Assembly (NCBI GenBank): GCA_944336975.1
Contig: CALVLH010000016.1
Coordinates: forward strand, 1-35,908
DNA length: 35,908 nucleotides
Source of the DNA: an uncultured Clostridia bacterium
GTDB lineage: Bacteria; Bacillota; Clostridia; Christensenellales; Borkfalkiaceae
Direction of reading: 5' to 3'
In this document: in pieces, positions 4,742 to 25,395 of the stretch
Layout: each line of letters opens with the position of its first letter
How positions within the stretch are numbered: position 1 is the first letter of the stretch
Notes under the pieces: model-generated
The model's input: the letters and a program-made list of their open reading frames with translations, nothing else
Told to the model about the DNA's origin: nothing
Database searches by the model: none
Program-made: the position numbers and the translations under genes

Positions 4742-7700
4742 ATGAACAAGAGAGTAGTGATCGATTTCAGTCCGGAATGGCTCCTGTCGCATCAAGACGA
4801 TTACGATGTATTTCCCGTCGAACGCTTTGCCGAGCTCGTGCATTCGAGTGATTATGACATGGACGTCATCGATTATTCGGCGACTTCCTGTTGTATCGCG
4901 TGGAATAATTCCGAAATGAGCTTCGACGCGATGAAGCAGTGGGTGATCTCCGCCCTGCAAAACTGCTTTGACTGCGCAGGCGAAGAGGAATTCGTCTCCT
5001 TCGGAGAAGAAGAAGAGTATGACGAGATCGACGAAGAGGGGATCGCCGCGTTGGCAAAGGAGACGGAGGAGTGGAGTTCGGCGCTCGATCGGGAAGACGA
5101 TACGGAGGGCGCGTCCGACGTCGCGGAGGAGACCGAAGAAAGCGACGGAGAGCAGCCGGGCATCGATACGGAGCTCTTTGACGACGAAGACATCCCCGAG
5201 CGCCCCGCTTCGAGGTCGGACGCGTTGTACGAACGCTTCTTCGCCAAGCGGAAACCGCAGGCGAAAGACGTCCCCAAAACGCTTCCCGAGATCCTGAAAA
5301 TGGTCGAAGATCTGCGCAAAGCGCTGTCGGAAAAGATCATGGGACAAGATCACGCGGTGGAAGAGTTCGCCTCCGGGCTGTACAGCGCGGAGATCCACAC
5401 GAGAAACGGAAAACAGCGCAACAAGCCGCGCGCGGTCTTTTTGTTCGCGGGGCCTCCCGGCGTGGGCAAGACCTATCTCGCGGAGACGGCGGCGAATTTC
5501 CTCGGGCTGCCGTATCTGCGGCTGGACATGAGCGGATTTTCCGACAAGGAGATGGGCGCGGAATGTTTCAGCGGCGTACAGCCTTCCTATAAAGCCGCGC
5601 ACGCGGGGCAGGTCACGCAGTTCGTCAGCGACAATCCCGAATGCGTCCTCCTCTTCGACGAGATCGAAAAGGCGCATCTGAGCGTCATCCAGCTCTTCTT
5701 GCAGATCCTCGAAGGCGCGCGCCTCAAAGACCTGTTCACCGAAGAGGAGGTCAGCTTCGAGCGGGCGATCATCATCATGACGACGAACGCGGGCTCGCAG
5801 CTCTATTCTGAGACGGAGAAGCGCAACTTCTCCGACGTCTCCGAACAGAGCGTCATCCGTGCGTTGCGCAACGACCTCAATCCCGAGACCAAGGAACCGC
5901 TGTTCCCCGCGCCCATCCTTTCCCGTCTCGCGGAGAGCACGGTCATCATGTTCAACCATCTCGAACCGTTCGCGCTGTGCGACATCGTGCGCCATCAGCT
6001 CCTGTCCCACCGTTCCGACTATGCGGACAGCTTTCGCCTCAACGTGTGCATGGACGACGACATTCCCAAGGCGATCCTCTACTCGGTGGGCGGAATGACA
6101 GACGCCCGCACTTTGAAGGGCGCCGCGAAATCGCTCATGGACGACGCGATGCTCGAACTGTTCGACCACGTCGGCGGCGGCGAGGACGATACATGGTTCG
6201 AAAAGGTGGAAGAGATCCGCTTCACGCTCGATTTCGACGACGCTTCTCCCGAAGCGGCGGCGCTTTTCAGAAAACGCGAGGAATTGCGCCTGTTCGTCTT
6301 TACGGACAGGGACCATCTTCCCGTGGGCGGAAGGGACTTCGCGCTGATCAGAACGGGCGAACTCGACAAGGCGAAAGAGATCCTGCGCGGAGACGTCGAT
6401 TGCGCGGTCGTGGACTTTTCCTGCCGTTCCAGGCAAAGAAAATACGTCCCGCGCGATCCCGAAGATATTGATTCGGACGGCGTGGAGCTGTTCCGCTATC
6501 TGCGCGAATATTATCCCGAACTGCCCGTGTATATCCTCAACGCGGAAAAGGGATACGGGGGAACGTCGGCGTTCCGTTCCTTTATCCGTGCGGGAGCGCG
6601 CGACGTCATCGATGCGTGCGGCGGCGAGGAAAAGACGGCGGAGCAACTGGAACGCGTCGCGCAGAACGTGAAGATGCTGCACGAGGCGACCGCGCTGTTC
6701 CGTGCGAACAACTCGCTTTCCTTCAACTGCGCGCAGGTGCTTTCCGAGGACGGGACGAAGGTGGAGATCAAACTCGCCGATCTCAGCCTGAAAAAGAACA
6801 TCGCGGCGGAGGACAGCGGATTTATTCTGGACAGCTGTACGCGGCCGAACGTGCGCTTTACGGACGTGATCGGCGCAAAAGACGCCAAGGAAACGCTCAC
6901 GCAGTTCATCGAATTCCTCAAAAATCCCCGCAAATATCTTGCAGGCGGCGTCCGTGCGCCGCGCGGCGTGCTCCTGTACGGGCCGCCCGGCACGGGCAAG
7001 ACGTTGCTTGCCAAAGCGATGGCGGGAGAATCGGACGTGACCTTCATCCAGAAGAACGCGACCGAATTTTTCAACAGATATGTCGGCGAGGGACCGCGAT
7101 CCATCCGCGAGACCTTCCGCATGGCGAGAAAATATGCGCCTGCGATCCTGTTCGTGGACGAAGTGGATTCCATCGCGAAGCCCCGCACGGGCAGCGAATC
7201 CACGCACAGCAGCGAAGAGTTGCTCACCACCTTCCTTTCGGAAATGGACGGATTCGTCTATGACGAAAAACGCCCCGTGCTCGTGCTTGCCGCGACCAAT
7301 TTCGGGATCGAGGACGACGGGAATTCCCGCGCCGTGCTCGACGCCGCGTTCGTGCGCAGGTTTGACCGCAAGATCCGCATCGACCTTCCCAATACCGAAG
7401 AGCGCGCGCAGTTCATCTCCTATTACCTCAAAAAGCACGGCATCGATTACATACAGGGCACGGCGATCGACACGCTTGCGCGGCGGACGATCGGGCGCAG
7501 CCCCGCCAATCTCGAGATGATCGTGGAATACGCTCTGCGCTCCAAAAAGGGCGAAAAGCTGACCGAGGCGGAATTGCAGACGGCGATCGACGCCGAACGA
7601 TACGGAGAAGAGCGCAAGTGGAAGGAAGAGACCGTCCGCAAGACGACGCATCACGAGGCGGGACACGCCCTCATCGGCTGGCTGACGGGCAAGACGCCCA

Positions 7701-8176
7701 CCTATCTCACCAATATCTCGCGGGGCTCGTTCGGCGGGTATATGCTTCCCGCCATCGACGAGGAAAAGTTCGAATATACCCGTAAGGAGATCCTCGACGA
7801 CATCTGTTGCGCGATGGGCGGCAGGGCGGCGGAGATCGTCTATTACGGCAAGGAACAGGGCGTCTCTACGGGCGCTTCGAGCGATCTCAGGCAGGCGACG
7901 GAAAATGCGAAAAACCTCATCTGCCGTTACGGCATGGACGACGATTATCCCTTTGCGATCGACGCCGCGGCGCTCACGGGCGAACTGAAAGAACAAGTCT
8001 ATCGCCGCGTCGGCGAGATCGTCAAGAACGAGCTGAGCCGCGCGATCATGCTCATCGAAGAGAACCGTCCCGCCATGGATGCCCTCGTCGAGGCGCTTTA
8101 CAGCAAAAACGGCATGGACGCGCACGAGATCGAAGAAACGCTCGCGCCTTACCGCAATCGGCTCAATCAAAAATAA
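4742..8176 (+). CDS. Fusion ATPase: Clp-type AAA+ / receiver-like / soluble FtsH AAA+ zinc protease
   Basis: This 1144-residue protein has five parts. Residues 1-80 are unrecognised and about 80-170 are strongly acidic. A Clp-type AAA+ module (about 190-480) has Walker A GPPGVGKT 237-244, Walker B with D306 and E307, and sensor TTNAGS. A receiver-like domain (about 514-625) has an aspartate at 558 but Asn at the Thr/Ser position and no clear conserved lysine. An FtsH half (about 700-1140) has GPPGTGKT 747-754, D806/E807, the zinc motif HEAGH 971-975 and likely third ligand D1048. Both ATPases and the peptidase look intact. No membrane segment is visible, unlike ordinary FtsH. It lies 61 bases after parC without a terminator, after a GTGAGGAAAG ribosome site. 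ATP-dependent unfolding and proteolysis of a specific substrate is inferred; the substrate is unknown. Confidence 0.9.
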   Translation: MNKRVVIDFSPEWLLSHQDDYDVFPVERFAELVHSSDYDMDVIDYSATSCCIAWNNSEMSFDAMKQWVISALQNCFDCAGEEEFVSFGEEEEYDEIDEEGIAALAKETEEWSSALDREDDTEGASDVAEETEESDGEQPGIDTELFDDEDIPERPASRSDALYERFFAKRKPQAKDVPKTLPEILKMVEDLRKALSEKIMGQDHAVEEFASGLYSAEIHTRNGKQRNKPRAVFLFAGPPGVGKTYLAETAANFLGLPYLRLDMSGFSDKEMGAECFSGVQPSYKAAHAGQVTQFVSDNPECVLLFDEIEKAHLSVIQLFLQILEGARLKDLFTEEEVSFERAIIIMTTNAGSQLYSETEKRNFSDVSEQSVIRALRNDLNPETKEPLFPAPILSRLAESTVIMFNHLEPFALCDIVRHQLLSHRSDYADSFRLNVCMDDDIPKAILYSVGGMTDARTLKGAAKSLMDDAMLELFDHVGGGEDDTWFEKVEEIRFTLDFDDASPEAAALFRKREELRLFVFTDRDHLPVGGRDFALIRTGELDKAKEILRGDVDCAVVDFSCRSRQRKYVPRDPEDIDSDGVELFRYLREYYPELPVYILNAEKGYGGTSAFRSFIRAGARDVIDACGGEEKTAEQLERVAQNVKMLHEATALFRANNSLSFNCAQVLSEDGTKVEIKLADLSLKKNIAAEDSGFILDSCTRPNVRFTDVIGAKDAKETLTQFIEFLKNPRKYLAGGVRAPRGVLLYGPPGTGKTLLAKAMAGESDVTFIQKNATEFFNRYVGEGPRSIRETFRMARKYAPAILFVDEVDSIAKPRTGSESTHSSEELLTTFLSEMDGFVYDEKRPVLVLAATNFGIEDDGNSRAVLDAAFVRRFDRKIRIDLPNTEERAQFISYYLKKHGIDYIQGTAIDTLARRTIGRSPANLEMIVEYALRSKKGEKLTEAELQTAIDAERYGEERKWKEETVRKTTHHEAGHALIGWLTGKTPTYLTNISRGSFGGYMLPAIDEEKFEYTRKEILDDICCAMGGRAAEIVYYGKEQGVSTGASSDLRQATENAKNLICRYGMDDDYPFAIDAAALTGELKEQVYRRVGEIVKNELSRAIMLIEENRPAMDALVEALYSKNGMDAHEIEETLAPYRNRLNQK

Positions 8177-8197: not shown

Positions 8198-8226
8198 TTG
8201 CAAACGGGAAGCGTTTGTGATATAAT
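8198..8226 (+). promoter_or_regulatory. extended -10 promoter of the YbjN-YbjN-RyR operon
   Basis: The -35 is TTGCAA (8198-8203), the spacer is 17 bases and the -10 is TATAAT (8221-8226), preceded by TGA. It lies 22 bases after the fusion protease's stop codon, so this operon can be expressed independently of the parE-parC-protease operon. No terminator separates them, so read-through is also possible. Confidence 0.8.
8201..8217. promoter_or_regulatory. palindrome CAAACG-N5-CGTTTG between -35 and -10 (putative operator)
   Basis: A perfect 6-bp inverted repeat with a 5-base centre fills most of the spacer of the promoter at 8198-8226 and overlaps its -35. This is a classic repressor position. 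The binding protein is unknown. Confidence 0.5.
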
Positions 8227-8254: not shown

Positions 8255-8731
8255 ATGGCGAACAACAACAATGCTAAGCATGGGGCGTCGGTGTTCCGCA
8301 CCGTATGTCAGGCGCTCGATGACAGAAAGTGGGTGTATCAGAAGGATGAGGCGAATCTTCATGTGCGCGTAACGGTGACCGGGGAGGATCTTCCCATGAC
8401 GCTCAATATCCGCGTCGACGACGAGAACGATCTGGTGAAGATCCACTCGACGCTGTTCAAGATCTCGGAAGAGAAGAGGGTAGAGGGAGCGCTCGTGATC
8501 AGCGCGATCAACTATCGCCTGATCGACGGTTGCTTCGACTACGATCTCCGCGACGGAGAAGTGCTGTTCCGTCAGGTCTCCTGCTATCGCGGCGGGATCG
8601 TAGGAAAGGGGATGATCGACTATATGATCCGCTGTTCGCTTTCCACCATCGACGAATATAACGACGACCTGCTGATGTATTCCAAGGGGATGCTCAGCTT
8701 CGACGACATCATCAAGAAGATCAACGAATAA
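8255..8731 (+). CDS. YbjN-domain protein, first copy
   Basis: This 158-residue soluble protein looks like the YbjN (type III secretion chaperone-like) fold. It has an N-terminal helix, a beta-sheet stretch around GEDLPMTLNIRVDD, and then FKISEEKRVEGALVISAINY and GCFDYDLRDGEVLFR, typical of the family. No catalytic residues are expected. It is a paralogue of the next gene, sharing the GEDLPM, E-R-V and INY blocks. The start has a near-perfect AAGGAGG site 7 bases upstream. It is the first gene of a three-gene operon that follows the Clp/FtsH fusion. YbjN proteins are thought to act as chaperone-like or regulatory binders, so an adaptor role for the neighbouring protease is possible but is inference. 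Confidence 0.8.
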   Translation: MANNNNAKHGASVFRTVCQALDDRKWVYQKDEANLHVRVTVTGEDLPMTLNIRVDDENDLVKIHSTLFKISEEKRVEGALVISAINYRLIDGCFDYDLRDGEVLFRQVSCYRGGIVGKGMIDYMIRCSLSTIDEYNDDLLMYSKGMLSFDDIIKKINE

Positions 8732-8743
8732 GGAGGGGGAATC

Positions 8744-9211
8744 ATGTCCGAAGCTATGGAAAAAGGAAAGAAAGTATTCAACCAGATGAGCTCCGCTCTG
8801 AAAAAACTCGGATTGAAATTTGAGACAGATGAAGAAAAGCTCAAAATTCATTTCATCATGAACGGCGAAGATCTCCCCATGGACTGCTATATGCGCGTGG
8901 ACGCGGACCGTCAGCTCATCATCTTCCAGTCGCCGCTGTCGTTCAAGTTCAGCGAAGACAGGAGAGTGGATGCCGCCGTCGCGATCTGCTCGATCAACTA
9001 TCTTCTCCGTTACGGCGGGTTTGATCTGGATATTCGCAACGGCTATACGCTCTTTCGTCTCGTGTGCAGTTACCGTGACAGCGTGATCGGCGATGAGCTG
9101 TTCAAGCTGATCCTCGGTACCGCCGTCGGAACGACGGAAAACTACAACGATAAGCTGTTCGCCTTGGAAAAGGGAAAGATGAAGGCGACCGATTTCCTTC
9201 CCGACAACTGA
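8744..9211 (+). CDS. YbjN-domain protein, second copy
   Basis: This 155-residue protein is a diverged paralogue of the preceding gene. Shared blocks include GEDLPM, the MRVDAD strand, FSEDRRVDAAVAICSINY and GGFDLDIRNGYTLFRLV. It has no signal peptide or membrane segment. The C-terminal tail ends in a charged KGKMKATDFLPDN segment that differs from the first copy. AGGAGGGGG sits just upstream of the ATG, and only 12 bases separate the two genes, so they are surely co-transcribed. Two kept paralogues suggest a hetero-oligomer or two substrates. YbjN folds are structurally similar to chaperones of secretion systems, but no such system is visible here. Confidence 0.8.
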   Translation: MSEAMEKGKKVFNQMSSALKKLGLKFETDEEKLKIHFIMNGEDLPMDCYMRVDADRQLIIFQSPLSFKFSEDRRVDAAVAICSINYLLRYGGFDLDIRNGYTLFRLVCSYRDSVIGDELFKLILGTAVGTTENYNDKLFALEKGKMKATDFLPDN

Positions 9212-9227: not shown

Positions 9228-9521
9228 ATGGAGAAGGAATATGTTCCGCACCCCGTCGATACGAGCGACGTCACGGTGAACGACGAGATCCTCGCATTGG
9301 CGGAAAAGCTGGCGGAAAACACGCATGAAGTCTGGGCGCGGGGACGGATGGCGGAAGGTTGGGTATACGGCGAAAAGACGGATCCCGACCGCAAGACGCA
9401 TTGTATGCTCGTACCTTATTCGCAACTCACGGAGAGCGAAAAGGACTATGATCGCCGTACTTCGCTGGAAACGCTGAAAGTGCTCCTCAAACTCGGATTT
9501 TCCATCGAAAAAAAGGATTGA
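9228..9521 (+). CDS. Small RyR-domain protein
   Basis: This 97-residue protein consists almost entirely of one RyR domain, the module first defined in the ryanodine receptor. Its hallmark string is visible as NTHEVWARGRMAEGW, then YGEKTDPDRKTH, LVPYSQLTESEKDYDR and LETLKVLLKLGF. It has no signal peptide. The start follows GGAGG 6 bases upstream. It is the last gene of the operon, and a terminator follows 24 bases after the stop. The function of bacterial RyR domains is poorly known. Suggested roles include ligand or protein binding. Its position beside the YbjN pair and the Clp/FtsH fusion is the main functional clue. Confidence 0.85.
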   Translation: MEKEYVPHPVDTSDVTVNDEILALAEKLAENTHEVWARGRMAEGWVYGEKTDPDRKTHCMLVPYSQLTESEKDYDRRTSLETLKVLLKLGFSIEKKD

Positions 9522-18219: not shown

Positions 18220-21200
18220 ATGCGAATCGGCAGAAAAAGCAGAAAAATCGCCTTGTCGGCGCTGAGCGTAACGCTCGCGGCGACGATGGCGTTCACCCTT
18301 TGCGCGAACGCGCTTCCCGCAGGAAAAACGAACGCGTCCGGCAAGAGCATCGAGAACGTGACGGGCAAATACGATACGACCGATCTGAGAAACTCTCTCA
18401 TCAATTCCGATCTGCTGGCGGAAAGCGCCCGCGATCAAGACGAGCAGTTCTGGATCTTCGTCAATCTGAAAGGGGACAGCGTCTCCGAGCGTTACGATCC
18501 GTCGTCCGATGAGTCGCTTTCCGAATATGCGACGAGCGAGGAGGCGTCTTCGATCAGCCGCACGCTCATCTCGCGTCAGGCGGCGTTCCTCAACGAGCTC
18601 GATCGTCAGGGGGTGGAATATACCTATAAATATTCCTATACCGTGCTGGAAAACTCGGTCGGTATCCGCGTCCGCTACGGCGACATCTCCCGCATCTGCA
18701 AGATGAGCGGCGTGGAAAGCGTGGCGGTCTCCGAACATTATGCCGCGCCGCAGTCGGTCACGACCAACGACGCGAACGCCTGGAATACGGGCATTTACAA
18801 GACGGAAGGCATCGAATACGAAGGCGAGGGGATGCTCGTCGCCGTTCTGGATACGGGCTTCGACGTCTCGCACGAGGCGTTCCGCGAAATGCCCGCGGAA
18901 GAGACGCTCGCCGTCGACAAAGAGGATGTGGAAAACCTCGTGTTCGGCGACAGGAGCAGCGGTTTCCTTACATACGATAACGAGACTACCGTCGATGACG
19001 TATATTATAACGACAAGATCCCCTTCGCGTACGACTATGCGGACAAGGATCCCGATGTATTCCCGTCCTATTCCTCGCACGGGATGCACGTGGCGGGCAT
19101 CATCGCCGGGAACAGCGTGGAGACGATGTACGATGCGGACGGCAAGCCGTTGCTCGATTCGGACGGAAACGTGCTCAACTTCCGCGGCGTTGCGCCGCAG
19201 GCTCAGCTCGCGATCTGCAAGGTGTTTACCGACGACGATAAGAGCGACGTGCTCGGCGGCGCGGAGCAGGTGGATATTCTCGCCGCGCTGGAAGACTGCA
19301 TCAAACTCGGCGTCGACGTCATCAACATGAGCCTCGGGTCCTCCGCAGGATTTGCGCAGGAAGAGGACGAATATACCGCGGGCGTGTATGCGCGCATCCG
19401 CGAGGCGGGCATCAGCCTGGTCGTCGCGGCGAGCAACGATTATTCTTCGGGATACGGCGGCCCCACGGGTACCAACCTGACGAGCAATCCCGACGCGGGC
19501 ACGGTCGGCGCTCCGTCCACCTATGACGAATCGTTCTCCGTCGCTTCCATCGACGGTCAGCCCGCTCCCTACATGATCGCCAATCAGGGCACCGAAAACG
19601 AAGCGTACGTCTATTTCAACAACGCGGCGGACGGTTACGGCAACGAGACCGACTTCCTCGACGATATGTTCACGAAGTTCGCCTCCAAGGTGAGCGACGG
19701 GCAGTTGGAGATGGAATACGTCGTCATCCCCGGCTACGGGCGTTCGAGCAACTATATCGGACTCAACGTATCGGGCAAGATCGCGGTCGTTTCCCGCGGC
19801 GGCGACGTGTCGTTCGAAGACAAGATGGCGACCGCGAAGCAGAAGGGCGCGGCTGCCTGCATCATCTACAACAACATTTCCGGAACGGTGCAGATGTCGC
19901 TGGGCTCGGAGAAAAATCCCATCCCTACCTGTTCTGTGACGTTGGAGATCGGACAGCAGCTTTCGGCGGGCGCGACCAACCGTACGGGCAAGATCCTGCT
20001 CGACCGCTCCTTCAAGGCGGGACCGTTCATTTCCTCCTTCTCTTCGTGGGGGCCTACGCCCTCGCTCGGGTTGAAACCCGAGATCACCGCGCACGGCGGC
20101 GACATCACTTCCTGCGTGCCGGGCGGCTGGGCGGAATACAGCGGCACCTCCATGGCGACGCCCAATATGGCGGGCGCGCTGTCCCTCATCCTGCAACACA
20201 TCGCGGAGACGTATCCTTCGCTGTCTGCGAACGATCGCCTCACGCTTGCATATCAGACGGTCATGAGCACGGCGACCATCGCAAAGAACGAGTTCGGCAA
20301 TCCCTATTCGCCCCGCAAACAGGGCGCGGGACTTGCCGACATCAAGAAGGCGATGGAGACGAAGGCGTATCTCTCCGTAGACGGTTCGGATAAGGCGAAG
20401 CTGGAACTCGGCGACGATCCCGACCGCACGGGCGAATATGTGCTCACGTTCCGCCTCAACAATCTCTCCTCGGCGGCGAGAAGTTATCGCCTTTCGCTGG
20501 ACGTATTCACGGAAACGGTCGCGGCGGACGGAAGAACGGTCGCGGAACGCGCCTATATGCTGGACGGGATGTACGATTATTCGGTCACCGCGGACGGAAA
20601 GGCGGCAGGGGAGAGCATTGCGCTCCCCGCAGGCGGAAGCGTGGAGATCAGCGTGACGCTCACGCTGGACGCGGACGCCAAGGCGTATCTCGACGACAAC
20701 TTCGCAAACGGGATGTACGTCGAGGGCTTTGTCCGCCTGGAAGATCTGGGCGGCGACGACGCGATCGATCTGAATCTGCCTTATCTCGCGTTCTACGGCG
20801 ACTGGTACGACGCGCCGATGATGGATTACAGCTCCTTCGAGATGGCGGAGATCATGCAGGACGATTCCATTCCCGACGACGAAAAGCCGCAGGCGAGCAT
20901 CTACGAGACGACGCCGTTCGGAATGTACGACAACGAGCAGTACATCATCCCCATGGGCGAATATGTGTACGAACTGCCCGAGGGATACGATACCGTATAT
21001 CCCGACATGGATAAGGCGTCCGTCTCCATGTACGACTCGGAAAACAATCATACCATATATGAGTTTTATGCGGTGTATGCAGGAATGCTTCGTTCCGCGA
21101 AATATATGGAGCTCAGCATTCGCGACGCGGTCACGGGAGAGCTGGTGTTCTACGAGAACCGTCCCAACGTCCGTAAAGCGTACGCTTCGGGCGGAAGCAT

Positions 21201-24200
21201 CCATCCTTCCTATGTCGAACTCGAATTCAATCCCGCGGAACTCAACCTCTCCAACAACAGACAATATGTGTTCTCCATGAAGGGAACGCTGGACAGCATC
21301 GGCAGAGAGGACGAAAAGGAACGGACGGGGAATACCTATTCGTTCACCTTCACGGTGGATACCGAAGCGCCCGAACTGCACGATTATAACATCCGTTTCG
21401 AACCTTATCAGGAGAACAAAGAGACAAAATACAAGGTCTATCTCGATCTCGAGATCTCGGATAACCATTACGCGCAATCGGCGTTGCTGTGCTACCTGGA
21501 TGCGGAAAAGAACGAGCTCGCCATGCTCACGGGCTATACCGTGCCCGTGAACGGCGCGAAGAACTCCACTTCCAAGCTGAGCGTCGAGATCACCGACTAT
21601 TACGAAAATCTCGACGAGATCTACGTGCAGGTAGACGACTACGCGCTCAATGCGGCGGTCTATAAGCTGACGTTGGGCGGGTTCAACGGCGATTACGGCT
21701 TCAAAGACACTTCCGACGCCATCGATTATCCCGACGAGATCTCCTTTGCCGAAAGCGAACTCACGATCGCGACGAACGAGGTCGTCAAACTGACTCCCGT
21801 CGTCTCTCCCGCCGACGCGACGGCGACCGGCTATTTCTGGACGAGCAGCAATCCCGCGGTAGCGGAAGTGAAGGACGGCGAAGTGATCGGAAGAAGCGCG
21901 GGGCGCTCGCTCATCACCGTATATTGCGCGACTTGGGCGGACCGCAGCAAGCCTTATGCGGAGATCATGATCAACGTGACCGAGGATGAGGCGAAACTGC
22001 CCGCCATCAAACAGATCAAGTTCGGTAAGATCATCGCGGAGGACGACTCCATGCAGGATGCGACCAATACGACGGTCGCCGTCCATCCCAATCAGAATTT
22101 CAATCTCAACGCGACGATAGAACCCTGGTATTACGACCGAGAAGTGCAGATCGTCTACAAATCGAGCAACGAGACGGTCGCGACGGTGGACGAAGAGGGG
22201 AACGTCAGAACGCTTCGCGAGGGAAATGCGACGATCACGGCGACTTATCAGGGCGAGAATATGATCTATTCCGCATACGTCACGCTGGCGGTCGGCTCCG
22301 ACTTTTACGTTCAGAACGGGATGCTCATGTCCTATCACGGGATCGGCGGCACGGTCGTGATCCCGCTCGATCTGAACATCTCCTACATCGCGGAAGAGGC
22401 GTTCAAGGACAACGACAACATCGAGGTTTTGGAGATCTCCGCGCCGTGTGCGGAACTGTTCAAGGATTCGTTCGTGGGCATGACGAAACTCAGGCGCGTC
22501 ATCCTTCCCGAAACGCTGACCTATGTCTACCGCGACGCGTTCAGGGATTGCACCGCGCTGGAAACGGTGGATCTGCGCTGTACGTCGGTCACGTTCGGCG
22601 AAAACAGCTTCAACGGCTGTACTTCCCTCAAAAACATCCGCAGCATCGAGGTGACCGACTCCTCCGTGGATATGGACCGCACCAACGTGCTCTCTCTCAG
22701 CGACGATCAGATTTCCTTCGTTTCGCCCCGTCTCACGACGATCAAAGGCTATGCGTTCAAGGGCTGCACGGCGCTGGAATCGGTCGATCTGACCTGGTTG
22801 CGCACGTCGGGCGCAGGTGCGTTCGAAGGCTGCACCGCGCTGACGGAAGTCACGCTTTCCTCCCGTTCCAAACTCGCGGAAAGTATGTTCAAGGGCTGTA
22901 CCTCTCTCACGACGCTCATCTATACGGATACCGACACGCTGAACTTTGCGAGCGCGTCCGTATTCGAAGGTTGCAACATCACATCCATTCAGCTTCAGGG
23001 TTCGAATTATACGATCGAGGACGGCGCATATTATGCGGGCGCGGACAAGACGGAACTTGTCTGGGTCATGCAGGATAAGACTTCCTTCACCGTTCCCGCG
23101 AGCGTGAAGCGCATCGGCGAAAACGCGTTCGGCGGCAATAAAAACCTCAAACAGGTCACATTCGAAACGGGCTCCGCACTGGAAGAGATCGGCTCTTACG
23201 CATTTGCAGGAAGCGGCATTCAGTCGATTGTCCTTCCCGCAGGCGTACATACGCTCGGCAAGGGCGTGTTCAAGAACTGCGCCGCACTGGAAAGCGCCGA
23301 TCTGACGTGCGAGATCACGCAGATCCCCGACGAGACGTTCAGCGGCTCCGCGCTGACGAGCGTTGTCTTCGATCAGGCAAAGATCACGTCGCTCGGGAAC
23401 CGCGCGTTTTACGCGACGGCGCTCACGGGGGTGGACTTCTCGGATACCGCGATCGCCGCGATGGGCGATCAGGTATTCGGCGACTGCTTCGATCTTGTCA
23501 GCGTCGTCATGCCCAAAGTGACTTCGCTCGGATACGGCACGTTCTCCTCCTCGCTCTTTGTGGAAGGGGAGGACGCGTACGGCGTTCCCTATACTTATGC
23601 ATATTCCTCGCTGGAAAGCGTGACTTTCCCCGACGGCGCGACGACGCTGGGGACGGCGACCTTCTCTTACGAGGCGCCCAACTATTCGCTCGTGAGCGTG
23701 AACGTTGCGGATTCCGTATCCGAGCACATCACGGTCGCGACGGCATATCTGTTCAACAACTGCGAAGCGCTGGAAACGCTCAGCCTCCGTCATCTGCAAA
23801 AGGTGGAGGAGTATGCGTTCTATAATTGCTATGCGCTCGGAAACAACGACGAGGCGGGCGAACAGCTCGTGCTGTCCAACGTGACCGAAGCGGGCGATTA
23901 CGCCTTCTACGGCTGCGCATGGTTGCGTTCCCGCGATCTCGGCAAGCTGACCGCGATCGGCGATTATGCCTTCGCGCTCACCACGCATTTCACCGAGGCG
24001 GATCTTCCCGAGGCGAGGACGATCGGCGATTATGCCTTCTGGCTGAGCGGCATCCGTTCGCTGAACATCCCCAAGGCGGAAAGCATCGGCGTTCACGCGT
24101 TCGGCTATACCGATCTTTCGGGCGAATTTGTCATTCCTGCGTCGGTGACGTATGTCGGCGAAGGTTCGTTCACGGGCATTCCCGGATTGACCGCGCTCGC

Positions 24201-25395
24201 TCTGGAACGCGAATATGAAGATTATTTCGTGCGGGACGGCGTCCTGTACCGCGTGCTGGACGGAGGATATGAGCTGCTCGTCTATCCTTCCGCAAAGGAA
24301 GGCACGAGCTATACCGTCCTGGACGGAACGGTGCGGATCGGCGAAAACGCATTCGATCAGAACCGCAAGGCGGACGACAAGACGCCTGTCGGAGCAAATG
24401 CGCTTCAAGAGGTTGTTCTTCCTTCCTCCGTGCGCGTCATCGGCGACAAGGCGTTCTATCAGGGAACGGCGAAGACGTTCACGTTCTGCGGACTGGTTGC
24501 GCCCGTGCTCGAAGCAAAATACGTCGATCCCGACGATTACGATCCCGACACCTATGAAAATTATGTGTTCGGCGTGTTGGGCAACGGCGCAAAATATTAT
24601 GCGAACTTCTATAACTTCCTCGCGATCAATCTCTATGCGGTGCCCGCGGGCGGTGTAGAGGCATTCGGATTGACGTTGCGTTATCCCTCCAATGCGTCCG
24701 GATTTGACACGATCGTCTATTCGGGTTATTTCGATACGGTGGAAAAGACGGCAGCCGTCGCGTCCGACGAAACGCTTGCGGCGATCGCACTGCTGGAAGA
24801 AATTCCGACGATCGAACAGTTCAACGCGCTGAAGACGTCGAAAGATACCGCGCTCCTTGCGGAATATAAATCGCAGGTGACGGCTGCGCGCCGCGCCTAC
24901 AACAACGTGACGGATGCAACGCAGAAGGGATTCATCACGGCGGAACTTTCCGAACGGCTCGTCGCCACGGAAACGGCGATGAGGGAGGTCCGCGCATTGC
25001 TCGGGGATCCCGCTTCGGTCAGCCGTATCACGGTGGAGCAGAATCCCGCCAAGACGGTGTACACGGAAGGGGAAGCGTTCGATCCCGCGGGGCTTGTGCT
25101 CAAAGTGGTTTACGACGATTTCTCGGAAGAGACGGTCACCTCCGGATATACTTACGGGACCGACGCGTTGACGATCAATAACAGTTATGTCGAGATCGTC
25201 TACAACGGCGCCAAGACAAGCGTGAATATCCAGGTGCGCGCGGCAGAAACGACCGATCCGACAACTCCCACCGAAACGCCCGACAATACGGGACTTATCA
25301 TCGGGATCAGCGTAGCGGCAGGCGTCGTCGTGCTCGGCGCGGCGGCAGCGGTGACGGTCATTCTCATCCGCAGAAAAAAGCGCAATGAAAAATAA
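18220..25395 (+). CDS. Giant cell-surface subtilisin-like (S8) protease with PA, Ig-like and leucine-rich repeats
   Basis: This 2391-residue exported serine protease has several parts. The signal peptide runs to about 31 (ANA) and a propeptide-like region spans about 60-175. The S8 catalytic domain has Asp211 (VLDTGFD), His287 (HGMHVAG) and Ser644 (SGTSMATPNMAGA), with a protease-associated insert at about 480-590. Next come an Fn3-like region (about 715-860), two Big_2 Ig-like domains (about 1168-1365), a long BspA-type leucine-rich block (about 1365-2147, repeats like AFKGCTALESVDL) and a helical segment. A Big_3-like domain, a Thr/Pro linker, one membrane helix (about 2358-2382) and a basic tail RRKKRNEK complete it. 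The catalytic triad is intact. It directly follows oppF, suggesting it supplies peptides to the importer. The start follows AAGGAG 9 bases upstream. Confidence 0.93.
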   Translation: MRIGRKSRKIALSALSVTLAATMAFTLCANALPAGKTNASGKSIENVTGKYDTTDLRNSLINSDLLAESARDQDEQFWIFVNLKGDSVSERYDPSSDESLSEYATSEEASSISRTLISRQAAFLNELDRQGVEYTYKYSYTVLENSVGIRVRYGDISRICKMSGVESVAVSEHYAAPQSVTTNDANAWNTGIYKTEGIEYEGEGMLVAVLDTGFDVSHEAFREMPAEETLAVDKEDVENLVFGDRSSGFLTYDNETTVDDVYYNDKIPFAYDYADKDPDVFPSYSSHGMHVAGIIAGNSVETMYDADGKPLLDSDGNVLNFRGVAPQAQLAICKVFTDDDKSDVLGGAEQVDILAALEDCIKLGVDVINMSLGSSAGFAQEEDEYTAGVYARIREAGISLVVAASNDYSSGYGGPTGTNLTSNPDAGTVGAPSTYDESFSVASIDGQPAPYMIANQGTENEAYVYFNNAADGYGNETDFLDDMFTKFASKVSDGQLEMEYVVIPGYGRSSNYIGLNVSGKIAVVSRGGDVSFEDKMATAKQKGAAACIIYNNISGTVQMSLGSEKNPIPTCSVTLEIGQQLSAGATNRTGKILLDRSFKAGPFISSFSSWGPTPSLGLKPEITAHGGDITSCVPGGWAEYSGTSMATPNMAGALSLILQHIAETYPSLSANDRLTLAYQTVMSTATIAKNEFGNPYSPRKQGAGLADIKKAMETKAYLSVDGSDKAKLELGDDPDRTGEYVLTFRLNNLSSAARSYRLSLDVFTETVAADGRTVAERAYMLDGMYDYSVTADGKAAGESIALPAGGSVEISVTLTLDADAKAYLDDNFANGMYVEGFVRLEDLGGDDAIDLNLPYLAFYGDWYDAPMMDYSSFEMAEIMQDDSIPDDEKPQASIYETTPFGMYDNEQYIIPMGEYVYELPEGYDTVYPDMDKASVSMYDSENNHTIYEFYAVYAGMLRSAKYMELSIRDAVTGELVFYENRPNVRKAYASGGSIHPSYVELEFNPAELNLSNNRQYVFSMKGTLDSIGREDEKERTGNTYSFTFTVDTEAPELHDYNIRFEPYQENKETKYKVYLDLEISDNHYAQSALLCYLDAEKNELAMLTGYTVPVNGAKNSTSKLSVEITDYYENLDEIYVQVDDYALNAAVYKLTLGGFNGDYGFKDTSDAIDYPDEISFAESELTIATNEVVKLTPVVSPADATATGYFWTSSNPAVAEVKDGEVIGRSAGRSLITVYCATWADRSKPYAEIMINVTEDEAKLPAIKQIKFGKIIAEDDSMQDATNTTVAVHPNQNFNLNATIEPWYYDREVQIVYKSSNETVATVDEEGNVRTLREGNATITATYQGENMIYSAYVTLAVGSDFYVQNGMLMSYHGIGGTVVIPLDLNISYIAEEAFKDNDNIEVLEISAPCAELFKDSFVGMTKLRRVILPETLTYVYRDAFRDCTALETVDLRCTSVTFGENSFNGCTSLKNIRSIEVTDSSVDMDRTNVLSLSDDQISFVSPRLTTIKGYAFKGCTALESVDLTWLRTSGAGAFEGCTALTEVTLSSRSKLAESMFKGCTSLTTLIYTDTDTLNFASASVFEGCNITSIQLQGSNYTIEDGAYYAGADKTELVWVMQDKTSFTVPASVKRIGENAFGGNKNLKQVTFETGSALEEIGSYAFAGSGIQSIVLPAGVHTLGKGVFKNCAALESADLTCEITQIPDETFSGSALTSVVFDQAKITSLGNRAFYATALTGVDFSDTAIAAMGDQVFGDCFDLVSVVMPKVTSLGYGTFSSSLFVEGEDAYGVPYTYAYSSLESVTFPDGATTLGTATFSYEAPNYSLVSVNVADSVSEHITVATAYLFNNCEALETLSLRHLQKVEEYAFYNCYALGNNDEAGEQLVLSNVTEAGDYAFYGCAWLRSRDLGKLTAIGDYAFALTTHFTEADLPEARTIGDYAFWLSGIRSLNIPKAESIGVHAFGYTDLSGEFVIPASVTYVGEGSFTGIPGLTALALEREYEDYFVRDGVLYRVLDGGYELLVYPSAKEGTSYTVLDGTVRIGENAFDQNRKADDKTPVGANALQEVVLPSSVRVIGDKAFYQGTAKTFTFCGLVAPVLEAKYVDPDDYDPDTYENYVFGVLGNGAKYYANFYNFLAINLYAVPAGGVEAFGLTLRYPSNASGFDTIVYSGYFDTVEKTAAVASDETLAAIALLEEIPTIEQFNALKTSKDTALLAEYKSQVTAARRAYNNVTDATQKGFITAELSERLVATETAMREVRALLGDPASVSRITVEQNPAKTVYTEGEAFDPAGLVLKVVYDDFSEETVTSGYTYGTDALTINNSYVEIVYNGAKTSVNIQVRAAETTDPTTPTETPDNTGLIIGISVAAGVVVLGAAAAVTVILIRRKKRNEK

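Follow-up and report, generated by a model that had tools for sequence, protein, structure and literature searches.

A soluble chain joining a Clp-type AAA+ module, a receiver-fold domain and an FtsH-type protease: a candidate stacked unfoldase-protease in an uncultured Clostridia bacterium

To our knowledge, the bacterial ATP-dependent proteases of the FtsH and Clp families are either membrane-anchored, as FtsH, or consist of a Clp ring that recruits a separate peptidase. A single gene in a 35,908-nucleotide stretch of DNA from an uncultured Clostridia bacterium of the Borkfalkiaceae (assembly GCA_944336975.1, contig CALVLH010000016.1; hereafter the window) encodes parts of both, which raises the question whether the chain is genuine and what kind of machine it would make. 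The original prediction, made from the letters of the window, described one protein with a Clp-type AAA+ module, a receiver-like domain and an FtsH-type protease, and warned that it could be two genes joined by misassembly. Here we find that this fusion recurs, with the catalytic residues of both AAA+ modules and of the protease conserved, and we consider it moderately probable that it is a soluble, self-contained stacked two-ring unfoldase-protease, loaded or tuned by YbjN proteins, that serves in an accessory stress or conflict response. The gene and its parts are as follows.

4742..8176, + strand: fusion gene, open reading frame (ORF) with ATG start, 1144 amino acids
5294..6175, + strand: Clp-type AAA+ module (AAA_2), Walker A 237-244, Walker B D306/E307
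6263..6847, + strand: receiver-fold domain and beta-hairpin, from the predicted fold (Foldseek) and the alignment
6839..7606, + strand: FtsH-type AAA module, Walker A 747-754, Walker B D806/E807, R872/R873, pore loop Y780-V781-G782
7607..8146, + strand: M41 zinc protease, H971, E972, H975, D1048 (Pfam and alignment)
Residues, from Pfam and AlphaFold2: N-domain about 1-90; acidic low-confidence stretch 95-175; Clp-type AAA+ about 185-478; receiver-fold domain about 510-655; beta-hairpin 657-685; FtsH-type AAA about 700-955; M41 protease about 956-1135

Pfam found all three of the expected domains, AAA_2 at residues 229-382 (E 1.6e-32), AAA at 743-881 (E 2.9e-48) and Peptidase_M41 at 962-1132 (E 1.7e-29). 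The Walker A motifs do stand at residues 237 and 747, as had been predicted, HEAGH lies at 971-975, and the catalytic glutamates were numbered correctly (Walker B E307 and E807; protease E972). In NCBIfam the counterpart of the first AAA+ is the second AAA of ClpA and ClpB, and residues 700-1130 match FtsH (FtsH_fam 336.8 bits versus a cut-off of 600). A membrane segment was looked for in the fusion protein and not found, its highest 19-residue Kyte-Doolittle window being 1.15; the ordinary FtsH of the same genome (654 residues) has two hydrophobic peaks, of 2.74 and 2.26. No such window above 1.6 occurs in 27 of the 29 family rows, and the two that exceed it (L082, 1.69; L089, 1.73) do so in their N-terminal parts. 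ORF, Pfam and hydropathy agree on the soluble 1144-residue chain with two AAA+ families that had been claimed. The whole-chain AlphaFold2 model has a predicted local distance difference test score (pLDDT) of 78.8, falling below 50 at residues 95-175, and its best PDB folds by Foldseek are FtsH, AFG3L2, YME1 and chloroplast Ycf2-FtsHi chains.

That the chain is an assembly artefact joining two genes has next to no probability. The layout is common to 29 members from 28 genomes, each encoded in one open frame, and a 72% identical homologue stands in an independent record (locus L009); misassembly is thereby ruled out, and nothing was found in its favour. AAA_2, AAA and Peptidase_M41 are present in all 29 aligned members, which are 33-75% identical to the window protein. 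The same genome holds a paralogue of 953 residues (35% identity), and relatives in named records of uncultured Firmicutes or Clostridia reach best-segment identities of 72% (L009), 43% (L010) and 54% (L011). The alignment has 29 rows since the own genome gives two; L086 (contig edge), two fragments of genome G391, G561 (cut) and G777 were left out, and L083, which is N-terminally partial, was kept. The 30 loci of the neighbourhood counts given below are these 29 members and L086, with L067 and L069, on the same contigs as L011 and L010, counted once.

The family is real, diverse and patchy, and its architecture is rare. Matches across both AAA modules and the protease were seen in 4 of 41 genomes drawn from the same genus and order (G000, G002, G009 and G036). 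At E<=1e-90, 28 of 396 genomes of an order sample matched, in 17 of 142 genera, G391 being represented there by fragments at contig ends. At E<=1e-150 a class-wide sample gave one of 291 genomes, the own genome only, and a phylum-wide sample three of 398, namely the own genome, G777 and G561, the last of which is truncated by a contig end. None of 50,697 phage records and none of 72,556 plasmid records covers >=80% of the fusion protein in one place, and among the best 80 of 405 loci on viral contigs none encodes a protein that has both a pair of Walker A motifs and an HExGH following one of them at a distance of >300 residues. When compared with 22 cellular FtsH, all of them from related genomes, the FtsH halves of the fusions group as a single clade (support 1.0) that sits on a long branch. 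By eye, the protein of G777 (L174), which is outside the order, keeps HEAGH and looks degenerate in Walker A and B of the FtsH module and in Walker B of the Clp module.

Are the parts of the chain likely to be active? In the FtsH-type module K753, T754, D806, E807, the sensor-1 residue N853, R872 and R873 are invariant in all 29 members, as are H971, E972, H975 and D1048 of the protease; the Pfam M41 match is likewise found in 29/29, and the pore aromatic Y780 is kept in 26. The Clp-type module has K243, T244, D306, N349 and R456 in every member and E307 and R395 in 28 of 29 each, where we take N349 for sensor-1, R395 for the arginine and R456 for sensor-2 after the anatomy of Clp proteins; its pore aromatic Y283 is found in 22/29, the other seven being gaps. 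A tripeptide [ILVM]G[FLM] (IGF/IGL-type), which together with its place we assume to represent ClpP docking, was sought between residues 350 and 396 and occurs in 0/29 members. ClpP itself is present in all nine fusion-bearing genomes examined, out of 29.

Between the two AAA+ modules lies the receiver-like domain, which is borne out by the predicted fold only and has no Pfam match. Region 508-702, modelled alone from four sequences, has a pLDDT of 75.5. Foldseek returned 32 matches for it at E<=1e-3, all of them to receiver-bearing or to pilus-assembly (CpaE-type, same fold) proteins, with the receiver domains of NtrX, NtrC1 and HupR as best PDB matches. Position D558, presumably the phosphoacceptor, is Asp in 26/29 members; at the acidic position 522 only 15/29 have D or E, and no conserved Lys after strand 5 (positions 622-626) was found in the 29-row alignment. 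Since true receivers have an acidic pair and a conserved Lys, neither of which is retained here, the domain as modelled is named a pseudo-receiver.

Exchangeable N-domains are typical of AAA+ unfoldases, and the N-terminal regions of the fusions are of several types without mutual profile match (best probability 7%); a short clade mostly lacks them in the alignment. They are not copies of YbjN (profile probabilities <=1.05%). One type, type C, was considered as Clp_N and rejected: for one member, L087, Pfam had no relevant match, and the PDB profile match to ClpA N-domains is not significant (E 0.034).

In Clp unfoldases the substrate enters at the N-terminal face and exits at the ClpP-docking face, and FtsH has its protease ring beneath the AAA ring. 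The domain polarity of the fusion fits a stacked machine because the Clp-type module lacks the ClpP tripeptide and is followed in the chain by the FtsH module. A self-contained stacked machine is thus compatible with the anatomy that can be read from the sequence, in which the tripeptide is absent and both AAA modules and the protease are conserved. One chain would supply an N-domain for recognition, a Clp-type unfoldase, a receiver-fold spacer or regulator, an FtsH-type module and an M41 protease. We infer that six copies would assemble into a hexamer and stack two coaxial rings, and that a substrate, taken in by the Clp ring, would be handed on to the FtsH ring and cleaved in the M41 chamber. 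YbjN proteins may bring peptides or substrates to the machine, RyR, kinase/PP2C/vWA and TerD neighbours could provide the trigger in some lineages, and the whole would be an accessory ATP-dependent protease that works in addition to the ClpP and the membrane FtsH of the cell.

The YbjN part of this proposal comes from the genes that follow the fusion in the window.

8255..8731, + strand: YbjN-family protein gene (PF10722, E 2e-10), 78 bp after the fusion gene
8744..9211, + strand: second YbjN-like gene (PF10722, E 0.013, below cut-off), clusters with the first, 12 bp gap
9228..9521, + strand: RyR-domain protein gene, 97 residues (PF02026, E 5.5e-35), 16 bp after the second YbjN-like gene

The order in the window, all on the + strand, is gyrase/topoisomerase B, gyrase/topoisomerase A, fusion, YbjN, YbjN-like and RyR, and gene clustering gives the same order in L009. 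The operon partners (YbjN, YbjN-like and RyR) and the in-genome paralogue had gone unreported in the original prediction, of which the domain content, the active-site numbering and the solubility stand. A gyrA-linked core gene was considered and is rejected within the genus: none of 18 other same-genus gyrA loci has the fusion within about 1.5 kb downstream of gyrA, which makes the cassette an accessory one. When the 29 fusion-bearing genomes were searched whole for YbjN, ten Pfam hits appeared in nine genomes, all of them 58 to 2112 bp from the fusion. With a custom YbjN profile, seeded from ten such fusion neighbours, YbjN-like genes were seen near the fusion in 12/30 loci, all on the same strand, the nearest being less than 100 bp away in eight. 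In fusion-free genomes, five of 20 YbjN loci (L261, L264, L266, L267 and L268) adjoin a 655-741-residue protein with an AAA match, which in the three that were scanned is AAA plus AAA_lid_6; the remaining 15 have no such AAA neighbour, and the custom profile saw the YbjN gene in 16 of the 20. Within the order YbjN is thus repeatedly, though not always, the neighbour of an AAA+ protein, which suggests a wider AAA+/YbjN partnership. A YbjN fold and a proposed peptide-binding role are given in PMC5398634 and PMC9503650.

Several observations weigh against the stacked, YbjN-served machine. The predicted template modelling score (pTM) of the whole chain is only 0.49, so the placement of the domains is not fixed by the model. 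Pairwise distances of the four fusion domains are correlated (r 0.755-0.866); this agrees with a single fusion passed on whole, yet shared ancestry alone would give the same. Because a promoter-like site (TTGCAA-17-TATAAT, with TG before the second hexamer) lies at 8198-8226, between the fusion gene and the first YbjN, the two may be separate transcripts. No YbjN-like gene was seen in the fetched flank of 18/30 loci, some flanks being cut by contig ends, and 20/29 fusion-bearing genomes are without any YbjN Pfam hit. Order-wide, YbjN presence is only mildly enriched, with 7/28 fusion-bearing versus 41/368 other genomes, a count that missed G320 and G352, both positive in the whole-genome search. 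Finally, the in-genome paralogue (L062, 10285-13146) has Gly for the Walker B Glu of its Clp module (FDGIEKAH), while the residues of its FtsH module and protease are intact. This last substitution also bears on a different role for the Clp-type module, that of a structural or regulatory cap which replaces the FtsH membrane anchor and holds the hexamer together without being an active unfolding ring. The position of the Clp GYVG pore loop points the same way, since it reads PSYKAA in the fusion and is gapped in part of the family. We nevertheless regard a mere cap as unlikely, given that E307 is kept in 28/29 members and the sensor-1 Asn and sensor-2 Arg in all of them.

How does a stacked unfoldase-protease compare with known systems? 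With the FtsH/M41 AAA proteases (FtsH, YME1, AFG3L2) the fusion shares an FtsH-type AAA with intact arginines, the HExxH and the distal Asp; unlike them it has no transmembrane anchor, and it carries an extra Clp-type AAA+ and a receiver-fold domain on the N-terminal side. Its first AAA+ resembles Clp/Hsp100 proteins (ClpA, ClpB, ClpG/ClpK), to which the weak, non-significant similarity of one N-domain type to ClpA N-domains may be added, but it has a single Clp AAA+, no ClpP tripeptide and a built-in protease. In the transmissible locus of stress tolerance (tLST; PMC8290217), as in plasmid matches, a Clp unfoldase (ClpG) and FtsH are also encoded close together; there they are separate genes and FtsH is described as membrane-bound. 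The MoxR-vWA-FtsH ternary conflict systems (Kaur et al. 2020, PMC7159879) have a two-AAA FtsH-type protein and a signalling neighbourhood as well. There both AAA are described as FtsH-type with the first inactive, and the core is the MoxR-vWA pair, whereas the fusion has a conserved Clp-type module as its first AAA and includes an M41 protease. MoxR is not among the Pfam matches of the scanned neighbours, a scan that included no search aimed at MoxR. Literature searches on the architecture, and on the neighbourhood with FtsH or AAA+, turned up no description of such a protein among the titles and opening lines of abstracts listed, in line with the original prediction, whose author knew of no characterised protein with this domain order; a description may exist elsewhere.

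The genes around the other fusions bear on a further alternative, namely that the fusion is a conflict or stress-effector protease, held off until it is switched on by a nucleotide (RyR, CARF, TerD) or by kinase/PP2C phosphorylation, which then destroys host or invader proteins. Kinase genes occur at 5/30 fusion loci. In L074 vWA, PP2C (below cut-off, E 7e-4) and kinase genes follow the fusion, and L075 clusters alike; in L088 an FHA-kinase, a PP2C and a gene of the kinase-WD40 cluster precede it, and L087 has a kinase-WD40 gene. L064 has TerD (E 1.9e-39) and a kinase, and L065 a CARF-nuclease-like gene before the fusion (PADLOC CARF_PDDEXK, E 5.6e-36). A PF02026 (RyR) match is present in 15/29 fusion-bearing genomes, above cut-off in 13, and lies within 2 kb of the fusion only in G000, G320 and G390 (below cut-off); in G002 it is about 10 kb away, and L009 has a RyR gene too. 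A RyR profile built from the window and L009 also matches the C-terminal ends of fusion-adjoining genes in L071 (E 6e-4) and L076 (E 1.5e-4).

The RyR gene in the window operon and these signalling neighbours speak for such an effector, as do the patchy distribution, the non-conserved site seen at the 18 other gyrA loci, and PADLOC, whose best match for the FtsH AAA of the fusion is anti-phage IetA (E 1.5e-40, residues 664-954), with DolB, TRIP13 and others besides. The partners vary by lineage, however, many fusion neighbours are housekeeping genes, and the first YbjN and the RyR protein of the window have no PADLOC match. The PADLOC matches each cover one AAA module and were read as general AAA similarity, the NCBIfam model for the same ATPase scoring 120.5 against a cut-off of 510 bits, and a known defence system was rejected on this ground. 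We hold a conflict or stress-effector protease to be possible but rather doubtful. These neighbourhoods come from gene calls by a simple script that may miss genes, with only selected neighbours scanned by Pfam, and missing neighbours say little at loci that end close to the fusion gene (e.g. L071, L073 and L089). The short-form fusions (L062, L063, L084, L085 and L090) have a DUF1292-like gene directly upstream in 5/5 by clustering (one scanned, E 0.0064, below Pfam cut-off) and an FtsK_gamma-type gene downstream in 3/5 by clustering (Pfam for L085).

Returning to the stacked unfoldase-protease, we tentatively extend it to a further self-compartmentalised cytosolic degradation machine, a one-gene, two-motor enzyme with exchangeable N-domains and with YbjN peptide-binding chaperones as its dedicated loaders, which might be gated by a pseudo-receiver ring and by RyR/TerD/kinase signalling. 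If the two-ring machine is real, it offers a single-gene enzyme for measuring how work is shared between two stacked AAA+ rings of different families. It also supplies a partner that can be tested for YbjN, whose widespread family has a chaperone-like fold and no settled job.

Elsewhere in the window, at 18220-25395, stands a gene for a 2391-residue protein with a subtilase domain (S8), BspA-type leucine-rich repeats and Big_2, which is probably a surface protein. It follows a cluster of oligopeptide ABC transporter genes.

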